Shown here one piece after another: positions 10,327-14,861 of a stretch of DNA of 64,000 nt. Source of the DNA: an uncultured Luminiphilus sp. (GTDB lineage: Bacteria; Pseudomonadota; Gammaproteobacteria; Pseudomonadales; Halieaceae); assembly GCA_943787485.1 (NCBI GenBank), contig CALSMP010000020.1, positions 1 to 64,000 of the forward strand, given 5' to 3'. The notes below the pieces were generated by a model, which saw nothing but the letters and a program-made list of their open reading frames with translations, searched no databases and was not told the origin of the DNA. Numbering within the stretch: position 1 is the first letter of the stretch; the number at the start of each line of letters is the position of its first letter. The position numbers were made by a program, and so were the translations under genes.

Positions 10327-10782
10327 TCAGAGCCGCGAGAACTCCCGATTCAAATCATAGCGCCGGGATGTCACGTAGCGCTCCATGGACTCCACCCGAC
10401 CGAGTGCCTCATTCAAGCGCTCTTGGGCTTTGCGCAACCGATCCGAGGGCGCGTCGGGGTAATGGAACACCGTGCGCTTGCGGTAAGTATGGCGATCTTC
10501 ATCGTATTCCATCGTCACTTCTATATCCGCACTCTCGTCCCATTGTGAGGGGCGTGGCGCCAGCAAAAACCATGCGACAACGTAGGCCCAAAACGCCAGC
10601 GAGCCGGTGAAGATCAGCATCGCTGTGGCGCCAAGTCTTACCATCCAGGTCGCGACACCCCAGTGATCGGCCAGACCCGCACAGACACCGCCAACCCATC
10701 CAGCCGATCGGTTGCGGTAAAGATCCATACCCCACCCACGCCTGCGGTTGGCCGCAAATCCTGGTCTTGAATTCCGTCTCAT
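10327..10782 (-). CDS. pspC: Phage-shock protein C (PspC domain)
   Basis: A 151-residue inner-membrane protein. The PspC domain appears as DLYRNRSAGWVGGVCAGLADHWG followed by a long hydrophobic segment around LIFTGSLAFWAYVVAWFLLAP, and ends in a charged helical tail, RLRKAQERLNEAL. In the Psp response PspB and PspC sense membrane damage and pull PspA off PspF. The start at 10782 is chosen because its ATG overlaps the pspB stop (ATGA) and has GAGGGGAGA upstream. It is the last gene of the psp operon. Confidence 0.93.
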   Translation of the reverse strand: MRRNSRPGFAANRRRGWGMDLYRNRSAGWVGGVCAGLADHWGVATWMVRLGATAMLIFTGSLAFWAYVVAWFLLAPRPSQWDESADIEVTMEYDEDRHTYRKRTVFHYPDAPSDRLRKAQERLNEALGRVESMERYVTSRRYDLNREFSRL

Positions 10783-11027
10783 GATTCTCCCCTCGTGTGT
10801 TCCTGCTGCTTCCAATTTGGATGATCTGCCTCGAGAATCGCTTCCAACGACACGATACGTTCGTTGAGCTTATCAACCGTCACCAACATGGTATCTATCG
10901 ATTCACGATCATCATCACTCAAACTTCGGCTGGAGCGACTGACGCTCCGGTAGTGCATGACAATCCAGATGGGTGCAACGATGACCATAAACAGCACCAT
11001 CGGCACAAAGAAAAACTCAAGTCCCAT
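10779..11027 (-). CDS. pspB: Phage-shock protein B
   Basis: An 82-residue protein with one N-terminal membrane helix (FFFVPMVLFMVIVAPIWIVM), the HYRS basic turn and a coiled-coil tail ending LEAILEADHPNW. The tail matches the end of E. coli PspB closely. It forms the membrane sensor with PspC. It follows pspA on the minus strand and its stop overlaps the pspC start, indicating translational coupling. Confidence 0.95.
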   Translation of the reverse strand: MGLEFFFVPMVLFMVIVAPIWIVMHYRSVSRSSRSLSDDDRESIDTMLVTVDKLNERIVSLEAILEADHPNWKQQEHTRGES

Positions 11028-11105: not shown

Positions 11106-11783
11106 TCATTTTACCGACCCCTTTTCCTTGGCCATTGACTCGCGGAGCCGATCAAGTTCTTCGGATAACCACTCGTCCTGTTGCAGCGCCTCAATCTCCG
11201 CGGCAAGGTTACCCTCTCGCCCTAAATCCATGGCCTCCAACTCCCCTTCCAGGTTGTCCATCCGACGCTCAAACTTGTCAAATTTATTGAAAGCCTGATC
11301 GAGCTCACTTCGATTGACCTGACGCTTGACCGCCATTCTCGACTCAACTGTCTTTGATCGCATCAACAGCGCCTTCTGCTTTGCCTTTGCGTCCGACAGT
11401 TTTTGCTGCAACTGACTGACTTCCTCATTGAGCTGATCGATATGATCATCCGTTGCGGCGAGCTCAGTGGCCACGACATCTAGCTCTTGCTCAATAACAC
11501 GCTTTTCTTGAAGCGCAGCCCTAGCCAAGTCTTCACGGCCTTTACTGATAGCAAGCTTCGCCTTGTCTTCCCAAGCCGATGCCTCCAGCGCAATTTGGCC
11601 GCGCTTGCGCTCTGCCGTCTTTCGGTCGGCGAGGATCCTGGCCGAGGAGCTACGCACCTCGACCAAGGTATCCTCCATCTCCTGAATAATCAGACGAATC
11701 ATTTTTTCCGGGTCCTCCGCACTGTCAAGCAGTGCGTTGATATTCGAATTAATGATGTCCGACATGCGTGAAAAGATACTCAT
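11106..11783 (-). CDS. pspA: Phage-shock protein A
   Basis: A 225-residue coiled-coil protein of the PspA/ESCRT-III family. It starts MSIFSRMSDIINSNINALLD with the amphipathic membrane-binding helix, continues with DPEKMIRLIIQEMEDTLVEV and runs as almost unbroken heptads to the end. It should inhibit PspF when free and coat damaged inner membrane when released. It begins two bases after the stop of the 65-residue membrane gene, whose last codons carry its ribosome site (AAGGGAGAA), so the two are translationally linked. Confidence 0.96.
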   Translation of the reverse strand: MSIFSRMSDIINSNINALLDSAEDPEKMIRLIIQEMEDTLVEVRSSSARILADRKTAERKRGQIALEASAWEDKAKLAISKGREDLARAALQEKRVIEQELDVVATELAATDDHIDQLNEEVSQLQQKLSDAKAKQKALLMRSKTVESRMAVKRQVNRSELDQAFNKFDKFERRMDNLEGELEAMDLGREGNLAAEIEALQQDEWLSEELDRLRESMAKEKGSVK

Positions 11784-11785
11784 GA

Positions 11786-11983
11786 TTATTCTCCCTTAAT
11801 GTCGGCGGCGCCCAGATGACCGCCGCCCTCCATCACACGTCCGAGCCAATACGACAGCTCTATTCCGGCAGCGAGGGCAGCAAAGGTCGCCGCGCCCGCC
11901 GCGACTCCCGCCATCAGTGCAATCTCGCTGCAAAGAAACAAAACCACTGTGTAAACCGCAAACCGCTCGTCGATCGCATCCAT
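11786..11983 (-). CDS. Small membrane protein leading the psp operon
   Basis: A 65-residue protein that I do not recognise from the classic Psp set. It has two short hydrophobic segments, one around YTVVLFLCSEIALMAGVAAG and one around AAGIELSYWLGRV, then a Gly-rich polar tail. Support for a real gene: AAAGGAG lies about ten bases before its ATG, it is the first reading frame after the sigma-54 promoter, and its end carries the pspA ribosome site. A PspD- or PspG-like accessory membrane role is only a guess from position. Confidence 0.72.
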   Translation of the reverse strand: MDAIDERFAVYTVVLFLCSEIALMAGVAAGAATFAALAAGIELSYWLGRVMEGGGHLGAADIKGE

Positions 11984-12069
11984 TCTTTGGTACTCCTTTC
12001 AATCCATTGATCAGTGGGCGTCATGCCCTTCGAGGAACTGGCCAACCCAGCGCCTTCACATTAGGTATT

Positions 12070-12084
12070 GCGATTCGCGTGCCA
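12070..12084 (-). promoter_or_regulatory. Sigma-54 promoter of the psp operon
   Basis: On the minus strand the sequence reads TGGCACG-CGAA-TCGC. The -24 element matches the consensus TGGCACG exactly, and the -12 element TCGC differs from TTGC at one base. The invariant GG and GC are correctly spaced. Transcription would begin near 12058, about 75 bases before the 65-residue gene. PspF, encoded divergently, is the expected activator. Confidence 0.8.
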
Positions 12085-12138
12085 AAACGAAAATGTTCAT
12101 TTAATTCATAGGGTTATTGTTCTAGAGCCCGGGGCAAG

Positions 12139-12207: not shown

Positions 12208-13221
12208 ATGAGAACAGCACCTCAAACCATGATTGGTCAGTCACCCGCGTTGACTGCCGCCCTTGATCACCTGTCATTGTTAGCAGGCATCGACCGGCCC
12301 GTTCTTATTATTGGTGAACGCGGAACAGGAAAAGAGCTGGCCGCGGAGCGACTGCACTTCCTTTCACCTCGCTGGTCCGAGGCCTTCGTCAAGATCAACT
12401 GCGGTGCTATCGCTGAAACACTGCTCGAAAGCGAGCTTTTCGGCCATGAAGCCGGTTCATTTACCGGGGCAACCAAACAACACATTGGCCGTTTTGAACG
12501 CGCCGATGGCGGCAGTCTTTTCCTGGATGAGCTCGGCACCATGTCCTTGCGGCTCCAGGAAAAATTGCTCCGACTTATTGAATATGGTGAATTTGAGCGA
12601 GTCGGTGGACAGAAGACACTGAAGGTTGATGTCAGAGTGATAGGGGCCACCAATGCGGACCTGCCGAGAATGGCTGACGCAGGTGAGTTCCGCTGGGACC
12701 TGCTGGACCGATTAAGTTTTGACGTGGTCACCCTACCGCCACTGCGAGAGCGCCGCGAAGACATCGCCGAGTTGGCCAATCATTTTGCGGTTCGTTTTGT
12801 CTCTGAACTCGGCTGGGATTTTTTCCCGGGATTTTCCACGAAGGCTCTCGAGCTGCTTGAAGCCCACCCATGGCACGGCAACATACGGGAACTCAAAAAT
12901 GCCGTCGAACGCTCACTATTTCGCTGGGGACAGCAGGACGCGGAGGTCGATGCGCTCACACTGGATGCGTTTAGCCCACAACAGACCGCGATCAACCCAG
13001 ACGAAAAGCATTCCCCCAACGACCAAAACCCTAATACCAATGACTGGCCGATTGATCTTCGATCAAACCTCGCTACGCTAGAGAGGGATCTTGCGATTCG
13101 AGCTCTGACCGAGGCACAGTACAGCCAGCGTAAGGCCGCCACCCTGCTGGGCCTTTCCTATGACCAGATGCGCAGCGTAGTCCGCAAACACAAACTGCAG
13201 GTCAGGCTCAAAAGCACCTAA
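12208..13221 (+). CDS. pspF: PspF, sigma-54 activator of the phage-shock operon
   Basis: A 337-residue bacterial enhancer-binding protein with no receiver or sensor domain, as in PspF. The AAA+ domain has Walker A GERGTGKE, the loop GSFTGA in place of the usual GAFTGA, Walker B GGSLFLDELG, and LPPLRERREDI. The C-terminal Fis-type helix-turn-helix is QRKAATLLGLSYDQMRSVVRK. It would be held inactive by PspA and drive the divergent psp operon. The ATG at 12208 lacks a clear ribosome site; an ATG at 12229 is an alternative. Confidence 0.94.
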   Translation: MRTAPQTMIGQSPALTAALDHLSLLAGIDRPVLIIGERGTGKELAAERLHFLSPRWSEAFVKINCGAIAETLLESELFGHEAGSFTGATKQHIGRFERADGGSLFLDELGTMSLRLQEKLLRLIEYGEFERVGGQKTLKVDVRVIGATNADLPRMADAGEFRWDLLDRLSFDVVTLPPLRERREDIAELANHFAVRFVSELGWDFFPGFSTKALELLEAHPWHGNIRELKNAVERSLFRWGQQDAEVDALTLDAFSPQQTAINPDEKHSPNDQNPNTNDWPIDLRSNLATLERDLAIRALTEAQYSQRKAATLLGLSYDQMRSVVRKHKLQVRLKST

Positions 13222-13396: not shown

Positions 13397-14861
13397 ATGT
13401 CCCTATCCCTATCGGACAACACGCTGTTTCGCACCGAGTGTTACATCAACGGTCAGTGGTGCAGTGCTGAATCGAGCGCCAGACTTGCGATCAAAAATCC
13501 GGCAACCGGCGATGTTATTGCCGAGGTAGCTAAGGTTGGGGCTGAAGAAACCCGTCGCGCTATCGAGGCGGCCGAAACCGCCATGACCGCTTGGCGAGCG
13601 GTGCCCGCCAAACAGCGCGCTTCGATATTGCGGAACTGGTTTAACTTGGTGATGGAAAATCAGGAAGACCTCGCGCGCATCATGACGGTTGAACAAGGCA
13701 AGACCCTCGCCGAGTCGCGGGGCGAAGTAGCCTATGGGGCTTCCTACATCGAATGGTTCGCCGAGCAAGCCAAGCGCATCGACGGGGGACGTGATCCCCG
13801 CGCCGGGCCCCGATAAGCGAATCATATGCATCAAACAGCCCGTCGGGGTGTGTGCTGCGATTACCCCCTGGAATTTTCCAAACGCCATGATCACCCGAAA
13901 AGCAGCCCCTGCCCTCGCCGCCGGCTGCACCATTGTCATCAAACCGGCGAGCGAGACCCCGCTCTCGGCCCTCGCCCTGGCAGAACTCGCCGAGCGCGCA
14001 GGCATCCCTGCCGGCGTGCTCAACGTCGTGGTCGGTAGCTCGAGTGAGATTGGTGGTGAGCTCACCAGCAACCCGGTGGTTCGCAAACTATCTTTTACCG
14101 GCTCTACCCCGGTCGGCAAATTGCTCGAGGCCCAGTGCGCCGCCACCATGAAGAAGACCTCCATGGAGCTTGGTGGCAATGCGCCCTTTATTGTCTTCGA
14201 CGACGCCAATATCGACGCGGCGGTACAAGGTGCGCTGATTTCAAAATACCGCAACAGTGGGCAAACCTGCGTTTGTTCGAACCGGCTGCTAGTGCAAGCG
14301 AGTATTGCTGAAGAATTCACCGCTCGTTTGGCGAAGGCGACTGCAGAACTCACGTTGGGAAATGGCCTAGAAGAAGGAGTCAATCTTGGGCCGTTGGTCA
14401 ACGAGCAGGCCGTTGCGGATGTTGATTCGCTGGTAAAGCAGACCGTTGCCGCGGGTGCGACTCTCATTATGGGTGGCGCGCCAAGTGCGTTGGGACCCTG
14501 TTTTTACACCCCCACCATATTGACCAACGTAACCCCCGAGATGGCGGTTTTCCGCAACGAAATTTTTGGCCCGGTCGCCCCCATCGTAACCTTCAATGAT
14601 GAAGCCGAGGCGATTGCACTGGCCAACGATACTGAATTTGGCCTGGCCAGCTATTTTTACACGCGAGACATCGGGCGCGTCTGGCGGGTTGCGGAAGCTC
14701 TGGAATACGGGATCGTCGGCATCAACGAAGGGATTATTTCCAACGAAATGGCACCCTTTGGCGGCGTCAAAGAGTCTGGCTCCGGACGAGAGGGCTCCAA
14801 GTACGGGATGGATGACTATCTGGAGATTAAATATATGCTCATGGGCGGTCTCGATCGGTGA
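13397..14861 (+). pseudogene. gabD: Succinate-semialdehyde dehydrogenase, one frameshift
   Basis: An NAD(P)-dependent aldehyde dehydrogenase of the GabD type, which oxidises succinate semialdehyde at the end of GABA breakdown. It starts at an ATG with AGAGG upstream. The first part reads to RIDGG and the second picks up at [11 protein letters not shown]; removing one G from GGGGG at 13784-13788 joins them into a protein of about 487 residues. Catalytic residues are present: [10 protein letters not shown] (Asn), [11 protein letters not shown] (Glu) and [10 protein letters not shown] (Cys). With no other damage, this is probably functional or misread. Neighbouring aminotransferases fit an omega-amino-acid pathway. 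Confidence 0.85.

Follow-up and report, generated by a model that had tools for sequence, protein, structure and literature searches.

A predicted two-helix membrane protein encoded first in the psp operon of a Luminiphilus genome, credible as a hitherto unrecognised partner of PspA in membrane repair

The recruitment of PspA to the stressed membrane and its release from it have long been studied, mainly through the enterobacterial proteins PspB and PspC. The available text of PMC9239133 describes PspG (PF09583/TIGR02975) as a small protein with two hydrophobic stretches whose expression in E. coli is controlled by PspF, and that of PMC11237479 describes PspD as a small accessory component encoded in certain gammaproteobacterial psp operons and Toastrack as a novel PSP partner domain. 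The variations of the pspFABC operon listed in the available part of PMC11237479 include no mention of a first gene such as the one described here, and no description of it was found in the open-licence literature, whether on first genes or small proteins encoded ahead of pspA or on psp in Halieaceae or relatives of Reinekea. In the sections of PMC9239133 available, psp neighbours were identified by HMMscan with domain models; as the protein reported here matches no Pfam or NCBIfam family, it would be passed over by surveys of this kind, which rely on known domains.

We analysed a window of 64,000 nucleotides (64 kb) from an uncultured Luminiphilus sp. (contig CALSMP010000020.1), which holds a psp operon with a divergent pspF, a sigma-54-like site and pspA, pspB and pspC in order. 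The gene for the divergent activator, pspF (12208..13221, plus strand), scored 461.1 bits against TIGR02974 (cut-off 443.55). On the minus strand, pspA (11106..11783) matched TIGR02977 at 268.7 bits (cut-off 242.95), pspB (10779..11027) matched PF06667 (E = 1.2e-25) and scored above the TIGR02976 cut-off, and pspC (10327..10782), whose ATG at 10782 was picked by eye and overlaps the pspB stop codon, scored above the cut-off of PF04024 (E = 4.2e-15) and just below that of TIGR02978 (99.7 bits; cut-off 104). Between pspF and pspA lies a further gene on the minus strand (11786..11983), predicted to encode a two-helix membrane protein of 65 amino acids, for which we use the label pspX (protein, PspX), coined for the present analysis only. 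Its ATG is at 11983 and its stop codon ends at 11786; the ribosome site, GAAAGGAG, lies 9 nt 5′ of the ATG, and no alternative in-frame ATG, GTG or TTG start was found near it. The -24/-12 promoter-like site TTGGCACGCGAATCGCA (12069..12085, minus strand), a match to the sigma-54 consensus, stands between pspF and pspX and is the sole match with one mismatch in the window; a loose scan of the whole window with three mismatches gave 56 sites against a shuffle mean of 65.6, that is, no excess. This promoter-like site suggests that pspX is regulated by PspF. The pspX stop codon is 2 nt ahead of the pspA ATG, and AAGGGAG, the pspA ribosome site, lies within the last pspX codons. The description of the locus in an earlier note, made from the letters of the window, is thereby confirmed: with GAAAGGAG and the conservation in relatives described below, the reading frame is real and has a ribosome site of its own, it opens the operon, lying between the sigma-54-like site (12085-12069, minus strand) and pspA, and its end contains the pspA ribosome site. 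Separately, an aldehyde-dehydrogenase-like gene at 13397-14861 appears as two overlapping reading frames in different frames (13397-13816 and 13734-14861), which suggests that it is broken or carries a sequencing error.

The length of the pspX reading frame alone is not significant, as 271 of 1000 sequences made by dinucleotide shuffling of the 424-bp intergenic region contained a frame of at least 65 codons on the pspX strand; despite this, a chance reading frame is ruled out by conservation. When the single protein was searched against 390 genomes of the order, 13 matched, comprising its own genome, 8 with the match beside pspA and 4 with a match not at psp genes (L010-L013). The 140 Halieaceae genomes sampled contain 109 pspF loci above the TIGR02974 cut-off, two of them at contig ends, and pspA was readable in 107. 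An iterated profile found PspX in 62 of these 107 loci, always between pspF and pspA, with R7, Y11 and E42 identical in every copy and G26 in 57. The window PspX has the features that define the family, namely the predicted hairpin, these three residues and the slot between pspF and pspA. The pooled pN/pS of 0.26 (pN 0.125, pS 0.48; 21 independent pairs) shows that pspX is under purifying selection, and together with the conservation in place this establishes that it is a real gene. For alignment A2, 54 of the 62 copies were used, and eight (L040, L044, L049, L055, L067, L080, L090 and L091) were dropped for odd ends, ambiguous letters or redundancy. A whole-genome profile search of the same 140 genomes matched 67, in 66 of which a copy is at pspA (the 62 above and G420, G459, G462 and G464); G464 has an extra copy at a contig end, with no pspA within its 3.5 kb. 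All 66 psp-type copies with readable flanks are therefore at pspA. The earlier note had proposed a profile search for homologues beside pspA and had held that their lack in all relatives would speak against its proposal; they are in fact widespread. Its further question of whether homologues are always beside pspA has a divided answer, since the psp-type copies are, whereas a diverged paralogue, present in 11 of 140 genomes of the family, is not. As a separate observation, Luminiphilus syltensis NOR5-1B has a second pspX-pspA-pspB-pspC copy (L318:3892-5761), 98.8% identical over 1870 bp, beside which no pspF was found in 8.2 kb.

The diverged paralogue of the 11 Halieaceae genomes, which we call X2 and which is the only form present in one of them (G412), is encoded downstream of der, and the gene next after it is that for a DUF2807/Toastrack DUF4097 protein in 11 of 11 cases (L307-L317). 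The order of the cluster is der, globin, X2, DUF2807/Toastrack, GntR regulator, ABC ATPase and ABC-2 permease, with the globin gene before X2 in 10 of the 11. Two of the adjacent proteins were tested; Toastrack DUF4097 matched them at 39.1 and 42.9 bits (Pfam cut-off 22.9), and the DUF2807 match was stronger in both. Comparison of the PspX and X2 profiles gave a probability of 97.3%, against at most 1.0% for shuffles, and X2 retains the glutamate in 11 of 11 copies and the arginine nearly always, though not the tyrosine. The DUF2807 neighbours have signal-peptide-like N-termini, as judged by eye, which would place them across the membrane from the conserved residues and speaks against the adaptor reading set out below. 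In the genome from which the window comes (89.68% complete), neither X2 nor a DUF2807 gene was found, and among 125 genomes searched outside Halieaceae the sole real match was G106, which itself proved to be a member of Halieaceae. Four weak matches (E = 6.7e-5 to 0.009) had no psp or X2-cluster genes nearby and were rejected, and the weak matches in G435 (L324) and G431 were excluded from the X2 count. X2, newly found here, is a related protein in a second membrane-related operon. Since PMC11237479 counts Toastrack among the PSP partner domains, the psp and X2 contexts both point to membrane-stress complexes. It is conceivable, if on balance doubtful, that PspX and X2 constitute a membrane-hairpin adaptor family common to the PspF-PspABC and Toastrack/DUF2807-GntR-ABC envelope-stress modules; if true, one kind of hairpin would couple membrane state to different peripheral stress proteins. 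X2 beside the Toastrack protein thus offers a second, independent place to seek the same partner logic.

The earlier note had also expected pspX to be translated in step with pspA. The 2-nt gap in the window agrees with this expectation, but the gap is 3 nt or less in only 7 of the 62 Halieaceae loci, 10-90 nt in 46 and more than 200 nt in 9, and tight translational coupling is therefore not a conserved property. The close junction in the window, with the pspA ribosome site inside pspX, is also what would be seen if pspX were mainly a translational leader that couples pspA, the protein itself being of little weight. We consider this very improbable: selection acts at the amino-acid level, three residues are identical in all copies, the gap exceeds 200 nt in nine of the 62 loci, and X2 lies far from pspA in 11 genomes, so that this reading is largely refuted. 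Of the nine Luminiphilus loci whose gap exceeds 200 nt, seven (L034, L035, L044, L048, L049, L089 and L110) have a further small lipoprotein-like reading frame with the signature ..GCGMVTVVSE..SDYALC.EKREAGG.. between pspX and pspA; it was not found in the other two (L040 and L055), and the two examples tested had no convincing Pfam match.

The distance between pspF and pspA is 383-957 bp (median 429.5) in the 62 Halieaceae loci with pspX and 183-272 bp (median 209) in the 45 without it, and by this clean split of lengths pspX is a discrete insert that has been repeatedly gained or lost. Across the 107 loci, the best sigma-54-like site is at a median of 130 bp from the pspF start where pspX is present and 134 bp where it is absent, and at a median of 73.5 bp (pspX) or 56 bp (pspA) from the start of the next gene. 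The evidence for a promoter varies among the loci, since in 7 of the 62 the best-scoring site falls downstream of the point where pspX begins. Mapped onto a quickly built PspA tree (165 rows), the presence of pspX requires 16 changes, of which well-supported branches force at least 7; this count cannot separate gain from loss, but the homology of the copies and their shared slot make repeated loss the simpler explanation. Taken with the 45 operons without pspX, these changes indicate that the gene is dispensable. That many relatives have psp operons that work without it, and that X2 is accompanied by GntR and ABC genes, would suit a PspX that belongs to another membrane function, for example lipid or ABC-exporter homeostasis, and is simply co-induced with psp. 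This appears rather improbable to us, as every psp-type copy with readable flanks is at pspA and the genomes of the 45 loci without pspX have no relocated copy, except for G412 with its X2.

No Pfam or NCBIfam family matched the window PspX. When the 54 aligned members were searched, only scattered weak matches to single members were obtained, all with E values of 1e-4 or weaker; these included Cmx/CmrA efflux (1.4e-4) and DUF4407 (0.0019), involved at most 5 of the 54 members and were rejected as noise between hydrophobic stretches. A PDB profile search gave three matches with E values of 0.42-0.82, again noise. PspB was rejected as an identity (no PF06667 or TIGR02976 match; hhalign probability 0.2%), as was PspC (no PF04024 or TIGR02978 match; 0.5%). 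PspD was rejected likewise, with no model match, hhalign probabilities of 0.1-1.6% against one PspD sequence, and a position of pspX preceding pspA, and so was PspG, with at most 0.8% against six Vibrio sequences. The view of the earlier note that this protein lies outside the known PspB, PspC, PspD and PspG families thus stands, both by family models and by profile-profile comparison.

PspG deserves separate consideration, because PspX shares its size class and its hairpin-like sequence and lies behind a PspF-type promoter site, and could be a PspG-like effector, a hairpin produced under stress whose direct targets would be membrane energetics or respiratory complexes, and which would stand in for PspG in families that lack it. 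PF09583 matched none of the 140 Halieaceae genomes, with an E. coli control matched, and PspG was present in 6 of 7 genomes reached via Vibrio or Proteus loci. The same absence extends to Halieaceae without PspX, however, and so does not amount to a one-for-one replacement. The negligible profile similarity between the two proteins and the composition of the X2 cluster, which is of the Toastrack-GntR-ABC kind and not respiratory, also weigh against this reading, and we regard it as unlikely.

Among 60 pspA loci sampled from the order outside Halieaceae, 10 have a diverged PspX in the pspF-pspA slot, and all 10 belong to a single GTDB-type family (f6), which includes Reinekea. In this family, 12 of 22 genomes searched have PspX, in 12 of 12 between pspF and pspA, although 10 of the 12 had supplied the query alignment and the new finds are G878 and G879 only. 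The Halieaceae and Reinekea-family profiles aligned end to end with a probability of 95%, whereas none of 20 column shuffles exceeded 0.9% and the reversed alignment reached 0.2%. With the 10 Reinekea-family copies added, E42 is invariant, and R/K7 and Y11 are nearly so. Beyond the order, 369 genomes of the class gave, besides the genome of the window, 8 chance-like matches, none near psp genes; classic pspA was above cut-off in only 12 of 274 class genomes, and the psp slots of other lineages are therefore thinly sampled. The slot itself has varied contents. Other small hydrophobic reading frames with no PspX match were seen in f47 and L182. Small lipoproteins with SHOCT-like ends lie upstream of pspA in gammaproteobacterial loci (L195, L252, L253, L255, L256, L257 and L260), the one tested scoring 20.4 bits for SHOCT, below the cut-off of 27. 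In L130, L134, L141 and L205-L208, the slot upstream of pspA encodes small proteins that begin with a signal-peptide-like stretch and continue as a helical body; for the two that were tested, no Pfam family was found.

The two hydrophobic segments noted earlier in PspX were recovered by hydropathy and as helices 3-25 and 27-53 in an AlphaFold2 model from 22 sequences (mean pLDDT 82.3, pTM 0.58; mean pLDDT 95 over residues 11-40). In the model, the chain forms a confidently predicted helical hairpin that turns at the conserved G26. A membrane location is predicted on this basis, and a two-helix hairpin is itself a common shape that matches too many things. All 54 aligned copies have lysine or arginine in the N-terminal tail and 50 have one of them in the C-terminal tail, against 7 with either residue in the loop, and this bias towards the tails over the loop leads us to expect both ends in the cytoplasm. 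Given a turn at residue 26, Y11 and E42 should face each other, and R7 should sit one turn closer to the cytoplasm than this pair.

The first-gene position of pspX in the psp operon and the cousin of its product in a second membrane-related operon make it credible that PspX is a hitherto unrecognised partner of PspA in membrane repair. Our preferred interpretation, which we advance tentatively and place slightly short of an even chance, is that PspX, induced through PspF, serves the Psp complex as a membrane adaptor; we infer its membership of the complex, its choice of partner and its action on PspA. PspF and sigma-54 would switch the operon on, and PspX would be made first. The hairpin would then be embedded in the inner membrane next to PspA or PspB/PspC, with both ends cytoplasmic, where R7, Y11 and E42 could form a site on the cytoplasmic face. 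Such a site may help PspA to dock at the stressed membrane or to remain stable there, or may tune the release of PspA by PspB and PspC. A role of PspX apart from PspA would look the same in the present data. An adaptor of this kind would be a concrete, testable extra Psp component in abundant marine bacteria.

Compared with known systems, PspX shares the pspF-pspA slot with the SHOCT-like lipoproteins and small secreted proteins of other gammaproteobacteria, but those are lipoproteins or signal-peptide proteins without sequence kinship to it. PspD differs in gene position, pspD being downstream of pspC (L286) and pspX ahead of pspA. PspB and PspC are, like PspX, small inner-membrane proteins encoded in the same operon, yet both are already encoded in the window alongside pspX. 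In build PspX resembles PspG, which is also a protein of about 65-70 amino acids of inner-membrane type with two hydrophobic stretches. The two have no profile similarity, however, and their genes are placed differently: in E. coli, pspG lies away from the psp operon, whereas pspX heads its operon. PspX is also set apart by its R7/Y11/E42 signature.
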